From Paludibacter sp. (GTDB taxonomy: Bacteria > Bacteroidota > Bacteroidia > Bacteroidales > Paludibacteraceae): a DNA stretch of 64,000 nt. Shown here one piece after another: positions 8,761-55,484 of this stretch. The stretch lies in contig JAQUWU010000025.1 of assembly GCA_028692715.1 (NCBI GenBank), forward strand, positions 1 to 64,000, in the 5' to 3' direction. The position numbers were made by a program, and so were the translations under genes. The first letter of the stretch is position 1. Each line of letters opens with the position of its first letter. The notes beneath the pieces are model-generated. The model had not been told where the DNA came from. It made no database searches and saw only the letters and a program-made list of their open reading frames with translations.

Positions 8761-8965
8761 TATTCGATGCGATTTAATTATTTAACTTACAAAAATAATC
8801 ATTTTTTTCGTACACCCGTCAATCATTGTACTTAAAATTCATTGAATGTGATTTTTAGCAGGCTTGCAGCCTCTTTATTCATCTAATTTGATTAACTTTG
8901 CAGGCTGTAATAAAAAGCAAAAATTATGCGGTGTATAATCGCTAAACATTTATTATCAATACATT

Positions 8966-11900
8966 ATGGAGTATAATTTCGTTGAGCTAGAACAAAAGTG
9001 GCAATCATACTGGAAGGAAAATAAAACCTATAAAACAGATATTGACCAAAAAAAACCTAAATATTATGTGTTAGATATGTTTCCTTATCCTTCGGGTGCA
9101 GGATTGCATGTAGGTCATCCGCTTGGTTATATTGCATCAGATATTTTTAGTCGATATAAAAGATTGCAGGGTTTCAATGTGCTTCATCCAATGGGTTATG
9201 ATGCATACGGTTTACCTGCCGAACAATATGCAATTCAAACAGGACAACATCCTGCTGTTACCACACAAAAAAACATTGCCCGCTATCGTGAGCAACTTGA
9301 TAAAATAGGATTCTGTTACGATTGGGATCGTGAAATACGTACTTGTGAACCAAATTATTATATTTGGACACAATGGGCTTTTATCCAAATGTTTAATCAT
9401 TATTTTGATTCAAAATTGCAAAAAGCACAACCAATAGAGTCTCTCGTTAAATGTTTTGAAACATTAGGCACAAAGGACGTAAATGCAGCATGTACGGAAG
9501 AACTTTCATTTACAGCAGAAGAATGGAAAACAAAAACAGAAAAAGAGCAACAAGAAATTTTATTAAATTTCCGTATTGCTTATTTGGCCGATTTGAAAGT
9601 AAATTGGTGTCCGGCTTTGGGGACAGTTTTAGCAAACGATGAAGTGAGTGAAGGATTGTCTGTTCGTGGTGGATATCCTGTAGAACAGCGTGTTATGCGT
9701 CAGTGGAGTTTGCGTGTATCTGCTTATGCTCAACGGTTATTAGATGGTTTGAGCTCAGTTGATTGGACGGATTCGTTGACGGAAACACAAAAAAACTGGA
9801 TAGGACGTAGCGAAGGAGCTGAACTAAGGTTTTACCTCTCCCCAGCCCTCTCCAAAGGAGAGGGAGAATCGGGAGAAAATGATTCTAAGAACTCAGAAAG
9901 CATTAAAACTCCAGGTTATTATACCTCTAACAAGCTTGATTGGAGTTTATTGCATGATCATGCTAAAGCAATGAAGAGTGAGCCAACTGAAGCTGAAAGT
10001 ATATTGTGGGAAATGTTGCGTGCTAAGAAAACAGGATATAAGTTCAGACGCCAACATCAAATTGATAGATTTATTCCAGATTTCGTTTGTTTAGAAAGGA
10101 AACTTATAGTTGAGGTAGATGGAGAATATCATTTTACAGATGAGCATCGAGAACTTGATATAGCTCGAACAGAAATTCTTGAGGAATTAGGATATAAGAT
10201 TGTAAGATTTTCGAATGATGAGGTTAAAGAAACTCCTCATTTTGTTGTCGAAAAAATAATTGTTGAGTTACAAAAAACAGACAATTTAATCGGTAATGAT
10301 ACCTTGAAACAAAACGCTGCTTCTCTCTCCTTTAGAGAGGGTCAGGGAGAGGTCATTGAAGTTTTTACCACCCGTGCCGATACTATTTACGGTGTTACCT
10401 TTATGGTTCTGGCACCGGAAAGTGAATTGGTCTCAAAATTGACTACCAAGGAGCAAAAAGAAGAAGTAGAAAATTATATTGCAGCAACCAAAAAACGAAC
10501 AGAACGTGAACGTCTGGCCGATAGAAAAGTATCAGGGGTTTTTTCAGGATCGTATGCTGTCAACCCGGTGAGTGGAACAGAGATTCCGATTTGGATTTCC
10601 GATTATGTGTTGGCCGGTTACGGTACAGGTGCAATTATGGCTGTGCCTGCGCACGATAGCAGGGATTATGCATTTGCAAAACATTTTGATTTGCCCATTA
10701 TTCCACTGATTGAAGGATGTGATGTAAGTCGGGAAAGTTTAGACGCCAAAGAAGGAATTATGATGAATTCAGGCTTTTTGAATGGATTGACAGTAAAAGA
10801 AGCCATTGTAAAAGCTAAAGAATATATTGCCGAAAATAAATTAGGACGGGTAAAAGTGAATTTCCGTTTGCGAGATGCTATTTTTAGTCGCCAACGTTAC
10901 TGGGGCGAACCGTTCCCTGTTTATTACAAGGATGGAATGCCTTATATGTTGGACGAAAGCAAATTGCCGTTGGAATTACCTGAAGTGGATAAGTTTTTAC
11001 CCACTGAAAAAGGAGAACCACCACTGGGAAGAGCGAAAAATTGGTTTTATACCCCACCCCAAACCCTCCCCGAAGGTGAGGGAGCTAGCTCCGGTTCAAC
11101 TTTGCAAAATAATGATATTTTGCCATCTTCTCCTTCATTGGAGGGGACTGAGGGAAAGTCTTACCCTCTTGAACTGAATACCATGCCAGGATTTGCCGGT
11201 TCATCTGCGTATTATTTACGTTATATGGATCCGAAAAACGATAAAATGTTGGTAAGTCCAGAAGCAAATCAATACTGGCGTAATGTCGATTTATATATTG
11301 GCGGTACCGAACATGCTACCGGTCATCTTATCTACAGTCGTTTTTGGAATAAATTTCTTTATGATTTAGGAATAGTTTGTGAAGATGAACCGTTTAAAAA
11401 ACTGATTAATCAGGGAATGATTCAGGGACGTAGTAATTTTGTATATCGTATTAAAGATACCAACACTTTTGTGTCATTGAACCTGAAAGATCAATACGAA
11501 ACCACTCAGATTCATGTTGATGTAAACATTGTTTCGAATGATATTCTGGATACTGAAAAGTTCAAAAACTGGAATCCCGAATATAAAACGGCTGAGTTTA
11601 TATTGGAATACCCTACTCCAACCCTCCCCAAAGGGGATGGAGATAGCTCTGAAACAACATTGCAAAAATCTGAAAGTTTGCACATTTCCCCTCCTTTGGA
11701 GGGGACTAAGGGAAGGTATATTTGTGGTTGGGCAGTCGAAAAAATGTCCAAATCAATGTACAATGTGGTGAATCCGGATGATATTGTTGAAAAATACGGA
11801 GCGGACACTTTACGTTTGTACGAAATGTTTCTCGGACCATTGGAACAATCGAAACCCTGGGATACAAATGGAATTGATGGCGTTCACCGTTTTCTTAAAC

Positions 11901-12421
11901 GTCTCTGGAGTTTGTTTTATAAAGATGAAATTCTTCTAGTGAATGACGAAAAGGCAAATGCAGAAGAGTTGAAAATACTTCATAAAACTATTAAGAAAAT
12001 TACGTTTGATATTGAGAATTTCTCTTACAACACTTCTGTTTCGGCTTTCATGATTTGTGTTAACGAATTATTTACATTGAGATGCAGCAAGAAAGAAATT
12101 CTTGAACCTTTAGCAATTTTAATAGCACCTTTTGCTCCACATATTGCTGAAGAAATGTATCATATTTTAGGACATAATACAACCGTTTGCGATGCAAAAT
12201 TTCCGATTTGTAACGAAGATTATTTGGTGGAGAGCTCGGTTAAATATCCAATTTCGTTTAATGGGAAAGTACGTTTTATGCTACAATTGCCGGCAGATAT
12301 GAGTAAAGAAGATGTTGAAAAAACGGCTATGGCGAACGAACAAACAGCAAAATATCTAGATGGAAAAACACCTAAAAAAGTAATTGTTGTTCCGGGAAAG
12401 ATTGTGAATATCGTAATTTAA
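8966..12421 (+). CDS. leuS: leucyl-tRNA synthetase with three in-frame element insertions
   Basis: LeuRS charges tRNA-Leu and edits misacylated products. The signature HVGH (residues 48-51) and KMSKS (926-930) are intact, as are the editing-domain TTRADT motif and the C-terminal anticodon-binding region. The product is 1151 residues, roughly 250 longer than I expect for this phylum. The excess is three inserts: about residues 290-462, inside the CP1 editing domain and holding a DUF559 domain; about 696-731, before [14 protein letters not shown]; and about 881-917, nine residues before KMSKS. Each begins and ends with proline/glycine-rich peptide encoded by a palindromic repeat. Removing them restores an ordinary LeuRS of about 905 residues. 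No other leuS is visible in the window, so I infer that it is functional. A TAACTTTG -7 element is at 8893-8900. Confidence 0.96.
9834..10353 (+). mobile_element. DUF559-carrying palindromic element inserted in leuS
   Basis: About 520 bp inserted in frame in the LeuRS editing domain, between EGAELRF and [11 protein letters not shown]. The two ends are inverted copies of each other: CCTCTCCCCAGCCCTCTCC at the left matches CCTCTCCCTGACCCTCTCT read from the right end, and each end also holds its own hairpin of the CTCTCC-AAA-GGAGAG type. Between them, residues about 323-435 form a complete DUF559 domain: a TEAE motif, [14 protein letters not shown], then VEVDGEYH and [12 protein letters not shown]. 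These are the acidic and histidine positions of a Vsr-like PD-(D/E)XK nuclease fold. The domain has the orientation and frame of leuS and no start of its own. Mobility is inferred from the structure; I see no clear target duplication. Confidence 0.8.
11051..11158 (+). repeat. miniature palindromic element in leuS, copy 2
   Basis: About 107 bp inserted in frame, encoding a peptide that starts [11 protein letters not shown] and ends [10 protein letters not shown]. The left arm (CCAAACCCTCCCCGAAGGTGAG) and right arm (CTCCTTCATTGGAGGGGACTGAGGG) are inverted relatives of each other and of the ends of the DUF559-carrying element at 9.8-10.4 kb. The interior is about 45 bp, includes TTGCAAAAT, and has no gene. 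Confidence 0.8.
11608..11716 (+). repeat. miniature palindromic element in leuS, copy 3
   Basis: About 107 bp in frame, encoding a peptide from [13 protein letters not shown] to PPLEGTKGR. It has the same arms, spacing and interior (AGCTCTGA, TTGCAAAA) as the copy at 11.05 kb. It separates FILE from [13 protein letters not shown], which are close together in LeuRS of related bacteria, so the KMSKS loop is preceded by a foreign loop of about 36 residues. Confidence 0.8.
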
Positions 12422-12448
12422 GCCCCCTATCCCCAAAAGGGGAATAAA
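12421..12448. repeat. GC-rich palindrome abutting the leuS stop codon
   Basis: The sequence GCCCCCTATCCCCAAAAGGGG starts right after the leuS stop codon. The short form of this repeat recurs through the window (12.55, 26.5, 52.8-55.5 kb). It may act as a 3' stem for leuS. Confidence 0.7.
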
Positions 12449-12477
12449 ATTGAATCATTTTTTTAATAACAGTTTTT

Positions 12478-13431
12478 ATGAAAAATAAGATTGACAAATT
12501 AAATGATAAAATCAATTCTGTTGAATCTCAGTTACTAGCTAAAAATCCCCCTTTAGGGGTTAGGGGTAAACAAACCTGGCGAAATATTCGTGAGTATATT
12601 TTTATTGCGATCGGACTGTTTATGTATGCCGGAGCGTGGAAAGGTCTTTTGCTGCCTCATAAAATTACGGGTGGTGGTGTAACGGGTATTGGTGCATTAC
12701 TTTATTATGCCACCAATATTCCTATCTCGGTTTCGTTTTTTATAATTAATTTCATATTGTTGGTAATCGCAGTTCGATCGGTTGGGTGGGAATTCAGTTT
12801 GCGGACTATTTATGGAGTTGCTCTAATAACAATATATTTCGCAATTTTACCACAAGCACCTTTAGGAACTTTTGTAAATGCCGATGAAAATTTTATGGCC
12901 TGTGTGTTGGGTGGAATATTAATGGGGACTGGTATTGGTATTGTTTTCCTCTCTAATGGAAGTTCCGGAGGTACCGATATTATAGCTAAAGTGGTCAATA
13001 AATATCGAAATGTTACTTTGGGAAGAATTTTGTTGTATTGTGATGTAATTATTATATCGTCATCCTATTTTCTGAAGTTTGGTAGCATTGAAACCATTGT
13101 TTATGGGCTAACGACGCTGGGTATCTCAACTGTTGCGGTAGATATGGTGATAAACGGTGTACGTCAATCGGTTCAGTTTTTTATATTTTCCAAGGAATAC
13201 GAACAAATAGCCAACAGAATAAATTTAGAAGTGCATCGCGGAGTTACTATTTTAGATGGTATGGGTTGGTATTCGAAAGAACCGGTGAAAGTAATAACGG
13301 TTATAGCACGCAAAAACGAATCGATTAAAATTTTTCGAATAGTAAAAGAAATTGACCCGAATGCATTTATTTCACAATCATCGGCAATTGGAGTTTACGG
13401 CGAAGGATTCGATGTGATAAAAAGCAAATAA
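12478..13431 (+). CDS. YitT family membrane protein (DUF161/DUF2179)
   Basis: The 317-residue protein has five to six predicted membrane segments between about residues 40 and 215 (for example FIAIGLFMYAGAW and VSFFIINFILLVIAV), with the glycine-rich GGGVTGIGALLYY and SNGSSGGTDIIAKVV typical of YitT proteins. The C-terminal soluble DUF2179 domain includes EVHRGVTILDGMGWYS. Substrate and role of this family are not established. The cytoplasmic N-terminus includes NPPLGVRGK, encoded by a copy of the palindromic repeat (12546-12568), so this segment is probably an acquired extension. The gene starts 56 bp after leuS, across another repeat copy. Confidence 0.88.
   Translation: MKNKIDKLNDKINSVESQLLAKNPPLGVRGKQTWRNIREYIFIAIGLFMYAGAWKGLLLPHKITGGGVTGIGALLYYATNIPISVSFFIINFILLVIAVRSVGWEFSLRTIYGVALITIYFAILPQAPLGTFVNADENFMACVLGGILMGTGIGIVFLSNGSSGGTDIIAKVVNKYRNVTLGRILLYCDVIIISSSYFLKFGSIETIVYGLTTLGISTVAVDMVINGVRQSVQFFIFSKEYEQIANRINLEVHRGVTILDGMGWYSKEPVKVITVIARKNESIKIFRIVKEIDPNAFISQSSAIGVYGEGFDVIKSK
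12546..12568. repeat. palindromic repeat inside the yitT-like coding region
   Basis: TCCCCCTTTAGGGGTTAGGGG lies in frame near codon 25 and encodes PPLGVRG. It matches the short intergenic repeats near modABC in reverse orientation. Confidence 0.75.
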
Positions 13432-25223: not shown

Positions 25224-25475
25224 TAAGTAAATGGAACAAATTAATGTACCATTTAGAAACATTAATAGAACGCTGATTTATCGGAAAATAAAGGATAAAA
25301 CAAAACGGATTTTTCTTGCCTTCGGCAAGATGATTAAGACGCAACTATCTGTAAATCATTCCGATTTATCGGAATTCAAATCCGTTTTTTCAAATCCACT
25401 CTATCAGTGAAAATCAGCGTTCTATTCTTAAATATTTTCATGCAAAATACGACATTATTTGTTTTCAATTACTTA
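25224..25475. repeat. long dispersed repeat, copy 1 (inverted relative to copy at 32.35 kb)
   Basis: About 250 bp, nearly identical to the reverse complement of 32349-32630. It holds nested hairpins: CTTGCCTTCGGCAAG and ATTCCGATTTATCGGAAT. It starts near AAGTAAATGGAACAAATTAA and ends near ACGACATTATTTGTTTTCAA. It has no coding potential. Confidence 0.88.
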
Positions 25476-26524: not shown

Positions 26525-26531
26525 AAAACAG

Positions 26532-26585
26532 AGCCCTAACCCCTAAAAGGGGGATAATATTTGTTCCCCTTTAAAAGTTAGGAGT
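26532..26585. repeat. miniature palindromic element between DUF2975 and HTH genes
   Basis: The left arm CCCTAACCCCTAAAAGGGGG and right arm TTCCCCTTTAAAAGTTAGGAG are inverted relatives separated by about 10 bp. It begins shortly after the DUF2975 stop codon and ends 9 bp before the HTH start codon, so it occupies nearly the whole gap between the two genes. Confidence 0.7.
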
Positions 26586-32348: not shown

Positions 32349-32630
32349 TAAGTAATTGAAAACGAATAATGTCGTATTTTGCATGAAAATATCTAAGAAT
32401 AGAACCTGCCTGAGACAGGCAGGCGCAATTTTCACTGATAGAGTGAATTTGAAAAAACGGATTTGAATTCCGATAAATCGGAATGATTTACAGATAGTTG
32501 CGTCTTAATCATCTTGCCGAAGGCAAGAAAAATCCGTTTTGTTTTATCCTTCATTTTCCGATAAATCAGCGAAAATCAGCGTTCTATTAATGTTTCTAAA
32601 TGGTATATTAATTTGTTCCATTTACTTAAG
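32349..32630. repeat. long dispersed repeat, copy 2 (inverted relative to 25.2 kb)
   Basis: About 280 bp, nearly identical to the reverse complement of 25224-25475 but with an extra hairpin (CCTGCCTGAGACAGGCAGG) near its left part and a longer GATAAATCAGCGAAAATCAGCG end. It fills most of the 547-bp gap between def and the Mrp-type gene; I see nothing else there. Confidence 0.88.
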
Positions 32631-52759: not shown

Positions 52760-52805
52760 AAGTTTGATTTTTATTATAATGATATTTTAAAATTTGTAAC
52801 TACTC

Positions 52806-52833
52806 AGCCCCCCAACCCCCTAAAGGGGGAGCT
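52806..52833. repeat. palindromic repeat between modC and trmO
   Basis: GCCCCCCAACCCCCTAAAGG and a following GGGA: a short copy of the family found in leuS and modABC. Confidence 0.75.
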
Positions 52834-52983
52834 TTTGAGCAATAATCAATTTCTGTGCGCTTAAATTTGACTGTTCTATTATCTAAATTCCAATTTTTTA
52901 CGCTACAATTTTTCTGAAAAATGTCAAATAAAAATTTCTTGAAGTGCTGAGTACATACCAAAATTTACTATCTAACATTTTGC

Positions 52984-53769
52984 TTAAATTGCTAAGCTGT
53001 TTTTATAAGCATAGAGTTGAGTGGTTCTTTTTTTAAAAATATCCTCGGGCTTACCGGTTTGCATAATGGCACCATTTTTAAGTACAATTACTGAGCTTGC
53101 TAATCTCTCAACTTCCGAAATGTTGTGACTTACCATGAGCGTTACCGTATTTAATAGTTCATGTACCTTGAGAATTTCTTCTTGTAATTCAACTCGTTTC
53201 TCAACATCCAATGCCGACAGTGGTTCGTCGAGCATAAGTACTTTCGGTTTCGAAGCCAATGCTCGAGCTAAAGCGACTCTTTGTTTTTGACCGCCAGACA
53301 GTTTAAAGGGCTTTTGCTTTTTCAATGATTCTAAATCAAATAATTTGATCAATGCATTGAGCTCCTCTTCATTTTTTACTTTTTGTCCAAAAGCAATGTT
53401 TTTCTCAACACTCATATGTGGAAACAAAGCATAATCCTGAAACATAAATCCGATATTTCGCTCTTGTGGGCTAAGATTAATTTTCAGCTCTGAATCGAAC
53501 CACACCTGATCTCCATAGCTAATTCTACCTTTGTCGGGCTTGGTTAGGCCAGCCAAAATTCTTAACAAGGTAGTTTTACCAGCTCCCGAATGTCCGAAAA
53601 TACAGAGGAACTCCTTGCCACAAATTTCAGTATCAATCATCAAATCGGCTTTTCCGTCCGAAGTGAGCATCGATTTCTGTATGGAGATTTTCAGAGTACT
53701 ACAGGCCCCTAAATCCCCTAAAGGGGACTTTTTGATAGTATTACCAATCGTTTTTATTTTTTCACTCAT
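52984..53769 (-). CDS. modC: molybdate ABC transporter ATP-binding protein
   Basis: ModC powers molybdate uptake with ModA and ModB. The 261-residue protein has Walker A GHSGAGKTTLL, signature KLSGGQKQRVALARAL, Walker B VLMLDEPLSALD and the switch histidine in MVSHN. It lacks the C-terminal TOBE domain of longer ModC proteins. The N-terminus is extended: residues about 14-22 (KSPLGDLGACS) are encoded by an in-frame palindromic repeat, and the core begins near residue 27. Start of the repeat-bearing frame is only 55 bp after modB. Confidence 0.92.
   Translation of the reverse strand: MSEKIKTIGNTIKKSPLGDLGACSTLKISIQKSMLTSDGKADLMIDTEICGKEFLCIFGHSGAGKTTLLRILAGLTKPDKGRISYGDQVWFDSELKINLSPQERNIGFMFQDYALFPHMSVEKNIAFGQKVKNEEELNALIKLFDLESLKKQKPFKLSGGQKQRVALARALASKPKVLMLDEPLSALDVEKRVELQEEILKVHELLNTVTLMVSHNISEVERLASSVIVLKNGAIMQTGKPEDIFKKRTTQLYAYKNSLAI
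53704..53730. repeat. palindromic repeat inside modC
   Basis: GGCCCCTAAATCCCCTAAAG plus GGGA, in frame near codon 15 of modC, read as SPLGDLGA on the minus strand. Confidence 0.8.
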
Positions 53770-53823
53770 AGCTACAAGTTTTTATTTGAGGTTCTGCCAT
53801 TTTTATTTGTTAGGAAGTTGAAA

Positions 53824-54498
53824 TTATAAATTTATTGGATTTCGTTTATTTATACTGAAAACCAAAGTGAGTATAACCAATGAAATCAGGAATAACACAA
53901 AAGAATATTGATTGGCTACTTCAAAATTCATGGCTTGTACTTCGTCGTAAATGGCAATACTCGCTACCCTGGTTTCGCCGGGCATATTACCACCCACCAT
54001 AATAACCACTCCAAATTCACCAATACAATGGGCAAATGTCATGGCAATACCGGTTACTATTGAAGGAATCATATTCGGAATCAGCACTTTGAAAAATGTT
54101 TCTAGTTTTGATTTTCCTAAGGTGTAAGAAGCTTCCCGCAGATTCACAGGTATGGACATCAGTCCATTTTGCAAGGGTTGTATCATAAATGGTAAGCCAA
54201 AAATGACACTAGCAACTAAAACGCCCTCGAAACTAAAAGCCAATCGGAGGTTAAAGTACTGCTCCATAAATTGCCCAAAAGCATTTTGCGGACTGTAAGC
54301 TACCAATAAGTAAAAGCCTAGTACCGTTGGAGGCAAAACCATAGGCATACTTATCAATGCTTCGAGCAATGATTTGAACCAAAATTTGCGGTAAGCCAGC
54401 AAAGCAGCCAAGGGAAAACTTATGAGCAAAAGTATGCCTGTTGTCCAACCAGCCAATTTAGCGGTTAACAGAAGTGTATTTATAAAGTCTTCGTTCAT
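53824..54498 (-). CDS. modB: molybdate ABC transporter permease
   Basis: The 224-residue inner-membrane permease has five to six membrane segments and the EAA loop LREASYTLGKSKLETFFKVLIP at about 130-150, which docks ModC. FAHCIGEFGVVIMVGGNMPG is the ModB/CysTW block. It begins after a palindromic repeat located upstream of the start codon. Confidence 0.95.
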   Translation of the reverse strand: MNEDFINTLLLTAKLAGWTTGILLLISFPLAALLAYRKFWFKSLLEALISMPMVLPPTVLGFYLLVAYSPQNAFGQFMEQYFNLRLAFSFEGVLVASVIFGLPFMIQPLQNGLMSIPVNLREASYTLGKSKLETFFKVLIPNMIPSIVTGIAMTFAHCIGEFGVVIMVGGNMPGETRVASIAIYDEVQAMNFEVANQYSFVLFLISLVILTLVFSINKRNPINL

Positions 54499-54512
54499 GA
54501 TGTTATCAATTT

Positions 54513-54537
54513 GCCCCCTAACCCCCTAAAGGGGGAA
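54513..54537. repeat. palindromic repeat upstream of modB
   Basis: GCCCCCTAACCCCCTAAAGG plus GGGA, about 15 bp upstream of the modB start codon. Confidence 0.8.
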
Positions 54538-54608
54538 TTTGGGCTACTTTCGTCTAAAATATTCCTTTTTATCATATCATCCTTTATTAAAATATTCAAT
54601 ACTAGTAT

Positions 54609-54680
54609 TTTCCTCCCCTTTAGGGGGCGGGGGTTATTTTTATTCCCCCTTTAGGGGGTTAGGGGGCCTAGTTAGGGGGC
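54609..54680. repeat. paired palindromic repeats at the modA 3' end
   Basis: Two copies (CCTCCCCTTTAGGGGGCGGG, then ATTCCCCCTTTAGGGGGTTA) and a half-copy (AGTTAGGGGGC) in 70 bp. The half-copy encodes the last two residues and stop codon of modA (GCCCCCTAA on the minus strand). Confidence 0.8.
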
Positions 54681-55484
54681 TATATATCCATATTTCTCCC
54701 AAAATCCTTTTGTTGCAGGTGATAGCACGAATTTTTTAAATTTAGCAGCCTCCGTGTTTAAGCTTTGGGTTTTAATAAAAATACAAGCTTGTTCAATGGG
54801 CGAATACATTTTTGGATTAACAATATAACAATGTCCCTTGCCAGCCATGTCGGGTGCTAAAGCGTAGGAATAGGCAATAAAACCCAGTTCCGTATTTCCA
54901 GTAAAGGCATATTGGGCCGCCTGCGAAATGTTTTCGGCAATTACAATTTTCCCTTTCAAGGCATCGTATATTTTCAAGGATTTCATAAGTTCCAAGCCGC
55001 GGGTTCCGTAAGTGGCTATTTCAGGATTTGCCAATGCAATTTTTTTTACGGACTGACTAGTCAATGCTTTAAGTCCGAGCTTATCTACTTCGAGCGTGAT
55101 GCTGTAAAGTGCCAATTTACCATATGCATAAGTTGACATTGGACCAACAGTCAGCCCTTTTTCTTTCAGTTTGAGCGGATACTCATTATCGGCCGACATA
55201 AAAAAGTCGAAAGAAGCTCCATTTGTAATTTGTTGCACCAAGGTTCCAGACGCACCAAAAGTAAGATTTACTTTGGCTTTTGGATTTTGTTTTACATAAG
55301 CCGTTTTAATTTCTTCCAATACATAACGCAAGTTGGCGGCAGCAGCTACATTTACTTTTTGTGCATTAGTACTCAATACCGAAAACAAAATGGTTAGTGA
55401 AATTAATCCTTTTTTAAATCGGCCCCCTAACCCCCTAAAGGGGGACATGAAGTTAATTTTATTTATTATTGTCCTGTTTTTCAT
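54672..55484 (-). CDS. modA: molybdate-binding protein
   Basis: ModA binds molybdate in the periplasm. The 270-residue protein has VNVAAAANLRYVLEEI, TFGASGTLVQQITNGASFDFFMSAD (with the oxyanion-binding Ser/Ala loop) and a C-terminal FKKFVLSPATKGFWEKYGY. The signal peptide is odd: the hydrophobic core (ISLTILFSVL) and cleavage site (STNAQ) are preceded by a long n-region, of which MSPFRGLGGRF is encoded by a palindromic repeat. The final two codons and stop are also repeat-derived. Confidence 0.93.
   Translation of the reverse strand: MKNRTIINKINFMSPFRGLGGRFKKGLISLTILFSVLSTNAQKVNVAAAANLRYVLEEIKTAYVKQNPKAKVNLTFGASGTLVQQITNGASFDFFMSADNEYPLKLKEKGLTVGPMSTYAYGKLALYSITLEVDKLGLKALTSQSVKKIALANPEIATYGTRGLELMKSLKIYDALKGKIVIAENISQAAQYAFTGNTELGFIAYSYALAPDMAGKGHCYIVNPKMYSPIEQACIFIKTQSLNTEAAKFKKFVLSPATKGFWEKYGYIAP
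55421..55445. repeat. palindromic repeat inside the modA signal peptide
   Basis: GGCCCCCTAACCCCCTAAAG plus GGGGA in frame, encoding SPFRGLGG of the n-region. Confidence 0.8.

Follow-up and report, generated by a model that had tools for sequence, protein, structure and literature searches.

A putative transposable element with inverted hairpin-forming ends and a DUF559 nuclease, inserted in frame in leucyl-tRNA synthetase and other genes of Bacteroidota

The leucyl-tRNA synthetase (LeuRS) gene in a 64,000-nt stretch of DNA from Paludibacter sp. (contig JAQUWU010000025.1; hereafter the window) contains an in-frame insertion that is probably a transposable element, made up of two inverted hairpin-forming ends and a small nuclease of the Vsr/EDxHD type (DUF559), and belonging to a branch that would be specialised for in-frame residence in essential genes. 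Across the genomes compared, the element is a discrete unit with defined edges that is patchily present at the same site, has more than one origin and occupies many host genes, and single ends as well as nuclease-less pairs of ends are found at element sites. A first-pass annotation of the DNA had proposed a DUF559-containing LeuRS insert of about 520 bp, and this was borne out by the open reading frame, the match of the NCBIfam model leuS_bact to the 1151-aa ORF, the match to PF04480 and the inverted arms (Table 1). Element 1, the nuclease-carrying insert, lies just before the editing-domain match, flanked by residues that align to positions 235 and 237 of the Thermus LeuRS (1h3n); DUF559 is placed between the catalytic part and the editing domain (Pfam). 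Its arms are inverted over 32 nt and both fold, and the earlier description of them as near-perfect is slightly generous because they are 84% complementary. The left arm is predicted to form an 8-bp hairpin; the predicted fold of the right arm varies with the stretch given, positions 10318–10356 yielding 15 bp with a 2-nt bulge and positions 10322–10353 a shorter pairing with the arm's own tail. Also in line with the annotation, which had found no start codon belonging to the nuclease, no ATG or GTG occurs in frame from the left end to the DUF559 domain; there is a TTG at 9950, and an ATG at 9971, inside the first helix. Filled LeuRS genes lack about 20 to 26 nt that are present in empty relatives, and element 1 seems to have replaced this host sequence and not to have been added cleanly.

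Table 1. Elements, ends and end-like repeats in and around the LeuRS gene and elsewhere in the window.
Feature	Position	Strand	Basis
Host gene, LeuRS, 1151 aa, three in-frame inserts	8966..12421	+	ORF, Pfam, NCBIfam leuS_bact, alignment with 28 relatives
Element 1, nuclease-carrying insert in LeuRS	9834..10353	+	inverted arms; empty and filled relatives; 1h3n alignment
Left end of element 1, pyrimidine tail and hairpin (9846-9864)	9834..9865	+	arm pairing, architecture scan, fold
DUF559 nuclease domain, I-x-D-F ... E-V-D-G-x-x-H intact	9953..10270	+	profile match, E 1.3e-31
Right end of element 1, foldable inverted copy of left end	10322..10353	-	arm pairing, fold
Element 2, in-frame paired ends without nuclease, LeuRS (edges approximate)	11053..11165	+	direct repeat with element 3; relatives; fold
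Element 3, in-frame paired ends without nuclease, LeuRS (edges approximate)	11611..11718	+	repeat, relatives, scan, fold
Single end-like repeat over LeuRS stop codon	12418..12444	+	repeat comparison, architecture scan
Single end-like repeat, in frame near N terminus of next ORF (12478-13431)	12536..12566	-	repeats, scan, fold
Single end-like repeat	26528..26554	+	repeat comparison, architecture scan
Cluster of end-like repeats: 52804, 53701, 54510/54642 (inverted pair), 55419	52804..55445	.	repeat comparison, scan

The DUF559 match covers residues 330–435 of the window LeuRS (PF04480, E 1.5e-30, 105.7 bits against a curated cut-off of 20.6), and only DUF559, MTES_1575 and Vsr were matched by the insert. 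In a profile search (hmmsearch) the nearest solved chains were 3hrl, an endonuclease-like protein (9.3e-30), followed by I-Bth0305I, an EDxHD homing endonuclease (3r3p, 2.1e-7). The predicted model of the domain (mean pLDDT 80) likewise found 3hrl and I-Bth0305I (3r3p_B, 9.5e-5) as its best Foldseek matches, then two mitoribosomal chains and then E. coli Vsr; a structure model of the whole LeuRS (mean pLDDT 51) was left unused. By profile and predicted fold, DUF559 groups with the Vsr-like PD-(D/E)XK enzymes. The catalytic motif I-x-D-F...E-[VIL]-D-G-x-x-H was present in all 43 copies found embedded in larger genes (see below), and pN/pS of the domain was 0.11 to 0.27 in 11 compared pairs, with synonymous sites near saturation in several of them. 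Within LeuRS, pN of the domain was close to that of the host part, the left linker being much less constrained (pN 0.37 to 0.41) than the domain; in three SpoIID pairs the left linker was about as conserved as DUF559. On these substitution estimates the nuclease is kept intact by selection.

Among the 29 LeuRS genes compared, which by choice include all 10 filled genomes of the family set, site 1 was full in 10, held a single end in one (G079, a member of the window's genus) and was empty in 18; within that genus alone, three genomes were full, one had the single end and three were empty. Sites 2 and 3 likewise occurred in paired, single and empty states. One genome of the same genus (G001, L143) is empty at all three sites, its LeuRS nevertheless having a long open frame of 1014 aa. 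The hypothesis that the ten LeuRS elements go back to one origin was rejected (p-AU 0.0019; 44 rows, 108 columns), and two of the ten nest, with starred support, among elements from MetH; three named loci that duplicated genomes already included were left out of this comparison. In genome G042, two copies with 96% identity over 433 nt occupy two sites in IleRS, on two contigs that both end within the gene, and the identity stops at CAGACCCCCC and GGGG(C/G)TCTG (edges CAG...CTG). The IleRS of its relative G011, identified with a protein query after the zf-FPG_IleRS family query had returned no IleRS match in either genome, is 88% identical over 593 matched residues; it appears to hold only a single end at one of the two sites and, at the other, no element but some 10 nt of host sequence. 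Target-site duplications were not observed. The mobility that had been claimed is thus upheld, as far as sequence can tell, by the patchy sites, the rejected single origin and the G042 duplicates. Separate arrival of the DUF559 domain and the repeats, to be recognised in empty relatives, had been named as a finding that would speak against it; the LeuRS sites were found full, with a single end or empty, and in the recent duplicate pair ends and nuclease are carried as a unit.

Elements 2 and 3 form a direct repeat of 107 nt with 75% identity, and their ends are of the same make as those of element 1. A tail-plus-hairpin scan of the window for this end architecture (a pyrimidine tail, then a C/T-rich stem with a short loop) gave 12 sites, whereas none of 10 first-order Markov controls gave any; the scan does not pick up the right arm of element 1, which is too imperfect. 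The related repeat CCCCTTTAGGGG has 63 exact copies in this genome, compared with none for the pattern read backwards; by eye, it matched exactly the ends of none of the genome's five full-length DUF559 loci. Three stand-alone DUF559 genes of this genome (G000; L001, L002 and L004 on contigs C34, C79 and C102) lie near other palindromes; two of them, L002 and L004, fall in a different DUF559 clade and have longer repeats of the GAGCGTAGCGGAGGGG kind. The IleRS of this genome (L195, at the editing site before TTTPWTLPSN) and that of G072 (L194) also carry inserts that contain end-like sequences but no nuclease; these lie at the entry to the editing domain, a location resembling that of the elements in LeuRS and ValRS.

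A profile search found DUF559 in 58 of 120 genomes of the host family. The analysis took in 87 of the 89 matches at E 1e-17 or below, and 43 of these lay in frame in ORFs of at least 400 aa: ValRS/IleRS (11), LeuRS (10), MetH (6), UvrA (4), PurL (3), a SpoIID-like protein (3), DegT-type aminotransferases (3), restriction-like proteins (2) and PrmC (1). All 10 proteins scanned with Pfam (eight from the 43-copy set and two named loci) had host domains beside DUF559, and in some a single host domain spanned it. The embedded regions, which were chosen by their open frame, contain no stop in frame 0, compared with 463 and 771 stops in the other two frames. Of the 43 embedded copies, 13 have an ATG or GTG in the 20 codons before the domain (28 if TTG is counted) and 30 have none, whereas 39 of 44 stand-alone copies have one. 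In a phylum-wide search 170 of 296 genomes had DUF559 matches, with at least 39 further matches in ORFs of at least 400 aa among those listed. Of 580 confirmed matches in a scan of named genomes, the best 80 (two labelled Anaerolineae, the rest Bacteroidota) included 60 in ORFs of at least 400 aa, among them LeuRS of Prevotella, Dysgonomonas, Flavobacteriaceae and Cyclobacteriaceae as well as IleRS, RecG, RecJ and MetH; host identity was read here from the flanks, with Pfam for two loci, and the motif-based host labels are incomplete. In line with the proposal that the element travels within essential genes, many copies sit there in frame; others lie between genes, and the ends also occur without the nuclease. 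In the LeuRS of one member of the Sphingobacteriales (L229), end-like units are repeated on both sides of DUF559 and translated as repeated P/G-rich blocks. Two distant-clade copies (L063, G079 C134; L079, G104 C231) lie inside restriction-modification-like proteins, and the former adjoins tandem repeats of the PSFGGVPNGRGGK type.

The association of ends and nuclease was scored as the best inverted match between the 450-nt flanks of each DUF559 locus. In the family set the mean score was 22.4 (86 loci), compared with 11.8 for reversed flanks (highest 18.6). Flanks paired between genomes, a second control, had a mean of 12.1 and a maximum of 28.4, which is expected if the ends of different elements are alike, and single scores are therefore not proof. 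Scores exceeded the reversed-flank maximum of 18.6 in 35 of the 43 embedded copies, the remaining 8 having no flanking repeat above it, and in 25 of the 43 stand-alone copies that were scored. Among the best 80 of the 580 named-genome matches, one of which had too little flank to score, the mean was 18.8 against 11.4 in the control, and 25 of 79 (15 of 60 embedded) exceeded the control maximum of 20.6; many of the ends in this set look worn. The likeness of the ends rose with nuclease identity between elements from a different host gene and genome (rho 0.39, 519 pairs) and from a different host gene and genus (rho 0.44, 436 pairs), and neither rho was reached in any of 2000 permutations of a Mantel test. 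This test was run on 36 of the 43 embedded copies and excluded two restriction-modification fusions and five copies whose flanks scored below 16. In these comparisons the covariation shows ends and nuclease travelling together, and as it could be explained by shared ancestry of whole elements, it is no proof that one acts on the other.

Outside Bacteroidota, 17 DUF559 loci were picked by hand, not at random, from 42 plasmid records. In twelve of them the inverted match between the flanks scored higher than the control maximum of 17.6 (mean score of all 17, 30.2 against 13.0 in the control), in one of these, from Neisseria, only just (18.7), and in eight the tail-plus-hairpin pattern was present on either side and pointed inwards; scores of the Azospirillum, Sinorhizobium, Methylobacterium, Picosynechococcus and Synechocystis loci were not above 17.6. 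Flanking by such ends is thus found in embedded, stand-alone and non-Bacteroidota copies, where the annotation had named its consistent absence from DUF559 genes elsewhere as contrary evidence. The Deinococcus loci lie between paaD and paaZ and at different places in hpa operons, and the sphingomonad loci between sufB and sufC and in a transhydrogenase operon; Pseudanabaena was also among the chosen loci. Inverted palindromes also form the ends of the Novosphingobium, Sphingobium and one Sphingomonas locus, but these are built differently. Of the 17 stretches, 12 are annotated, each with DUF559 as a small gene of its own, and five carry no annotation. Only two phage records matched DUF559, and searches of defence-system and phage profile libraries gave weak matches only. 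Three of the Deinococcus loci (L327, L328 and L329), in three species, place DUF559 at three positions by catabolic genes of the same kind and offer a natural series for insertion mapping.

RAYTs are HUH tyrosine transposases, and the RAYT–REP systems with GTAG-tagged REPs are known as REPtrons. The palindromic ends could accordingly be ordinary REPs moved by a RAYT, with the DUF559 gene as a passenger caught between two of them. Y1_Tnp genes are indeed present in 39 of 61 family genomes, this genome having seven, all outside the insert, and 20 of 36 RAYT loci have inverted flanks above 18.6. Yet the tail-plus-C/T-stem architecture occurred on both sides of none of the 36 Y1_Tnp loci, whose repeats differ and in some cases contain GGTAG, whereas 27 of the 43 embedded DUF559 copies had it on both sides, as did 23 of 43 stand-alone ones, compared with 8 of 300 random places that were themselves drawn from loci holding elements. 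The covariation of nuclease and end sequences also argues against a passenger, and on the flank comparison RAYT-driven REPs were rejected as the main reading; we regard this origin as very unlikely. Several RAYT loci of the host family (L304, L301, L309 and L315) have their own palindromes, several with GGTAG or GTAG, unlike the DUF559 ends.

An EDxHD/Vsr homing endonuclease gene copied into cut empty alleles of one site, the palindromes being incidental or part of the target, would agree with the profile and fold similarity to I-Bth0305I and with the repeated use of the same sites in LeuRS, IleRS and MetH. It is very improbable, however, given that related nucleases occur in host genes unrelated to one another and at more than one site within a gene, that most copies have inverted ends, which also occur in pairs without a nuclease, and that Pfam and Rfam revealed no splicing device. 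Fusion of DUF559 to its hosts for their own use, for example in repair or regulation, followed by vertical inheritance, could account for the purifying selection on the domain inside LeuRS, where its pN is near that of the host part, but is hard to reconcile with patchy presence within one genus, a rejected single origin, near-identical copies at two sites, inverted ends, single-end remnants, left linkers that are poorly conserved in LeuRS pairs and host enzymes that share no function; we consider such accretion highly improbable.

The element resembles REPtrons in having small palindromic ends, often as inverted pairs, around one small nuclease gene, and in the nuclease-free genomic copies. 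It differs in that the nuclease is a Vsr-like PD-(D/E)XK enzyme and not an HUH enzyme, the insert having no match to the Y1 HUH tyrosine transposase, and in that the ends consist of a C-run tail and a C/T stem and not of GTAG-tagged palindromes. The RAYT-like role that had been suggested for the nuclease is consequently to be taken as a functional comparison only; the repeats carried by RAYTs in these genomes also differ from the ends described here. An intein was rejected, as the insert had no Pfam match to a Hint splicing domain at E 0.001, and so was a group I or II intron: no Rfam ribozyme was over threshold in positions 8900–12700 (one sub-threshold sRNA match, E 0.17), and the frame is open throughout. 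MITEs and REPINs are nuclease-free elements with paired ends (see also PMC10969869). LeuRS elements 2 and 3 are likewise nuclease-free paired ends, but they are read in frame and share their end architecture with the DUF559 elements.

In two sources, one of them a review (PMC10969869), palindromes of Rickettsia are described as sitting in frame in host ORFs, and CGTC REPs as lacking a dedicated transposase (PMC3733652, PMC10969869). The present elements resemble these CGTC REPs in the in-frame insertion of palindromic repeats in host ORFs, but the full element encodes a conserved nuclease, none being described for the Rickettsia elements in the relevant passages of the two papers. A link of DUF559 to CGTC-tagged REPs received no support from tag-like words: among 36 Bacteroidota ends, CGTC occurred in one left end and GACG in none, neither was found in the matching right ends, and in the 17 non-Bacteroidota loci CGTCATTG or CAATGACG occurred twice, both times inside the DUF559 match, and CGTCATT once, 440 nt upstream in L289 and outside its inverted repeat. 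With I-Bth0305I, presented as an EDxHD homing endonuclease in PMC3943268, and other Vsr-like homing endonucleases the element has in common the catalytic domain, by profile and fold, and the reoccupation of fixed sites in essential genes; it differs in that no intron or intein was found, and in its inverted hairpin ends, its many host genes and a nuclease in the host frame. VsrA of Caulobacter is a DUF559 protein with a predicted PD-(D/E)XK/Vsr-like fold and a putative repair endonuclease, for which the passages available mention no mobile element or flanking repeats (PMC12907096). We judge the element to be a new kind because it departs in a defining feature from each known kind tried, the bare catalytic domain excepted. 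No description of such a DUF559/palindrome element was found in titles and abstract openings of the open-access literature, and within that scope it is a kind without known equivalent.

We propose that a nuclease-carrying transposable element would work as follows. With ends, linkers and nuclease open in one frame and the host's reading frame unbroken, the nuclease would be translated along with the host enzyme and should form an additional domain within it. The hairpin ends may be recognised and nicked by their cognate nuclease, which might act on the target as well, and movement could proceed by copying or repair into a short target stretch, which would be replaced (about 10 to 26 nt). Only in-frame insertions in tolerant loops would survive, and single ends would be scars of loss. 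The best reading of the Bacteroidota branch is that its members live as translated, unspliced passenger domains. DUF559 proteins may also have other roles, such as the Vsr-like repair considered for Caulobacter (PMC12907096), which would count against this reading.

On a wider view, towards which we lean only narrowly, DUF559 proteins would be the dedicated mobility enzymes of a large, unnamed superfamily of C/G-hairpin REPs that spans at least Bacteroidota, Deinococcota, Alphaproteobacteria and Cyanobacteriota, and thus a functional counterpart of RAYTs with an unrelated fold; one branch, in Bacteroidota, would be a protein-embedded transposon kept as an expressed and unspliced domain of essential enzymes, and DUF559 perhaps the missing mobiliser of Rickettsia-type in-frame palindromes. 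The nuclease would be a new type of candidate enzyme for palindromic repeats, some of them without a known mover, and a selfish element in essential genes would be seen to manage without splicing, with life as a tolerated, translated domain. How bacteria come by inserted domains in core enzymes such as aminoacyl-tRNA synthetases, and why DUF559 genes are scattered through genomes, now becomes testable, and annotators should bear in mind that mobile DNA may lie behind 'DUF559 fusions' and odd P/G-rich loops in these enzymes. Elsewhere in the window, positions 25224–25475 and 32349–32628 are inverted copies, about 250 bp long, that match in three blocks, one of them (144 nt) at 99%; these arms lie about 7 kb apart and might bound a mobile or invertible segment.
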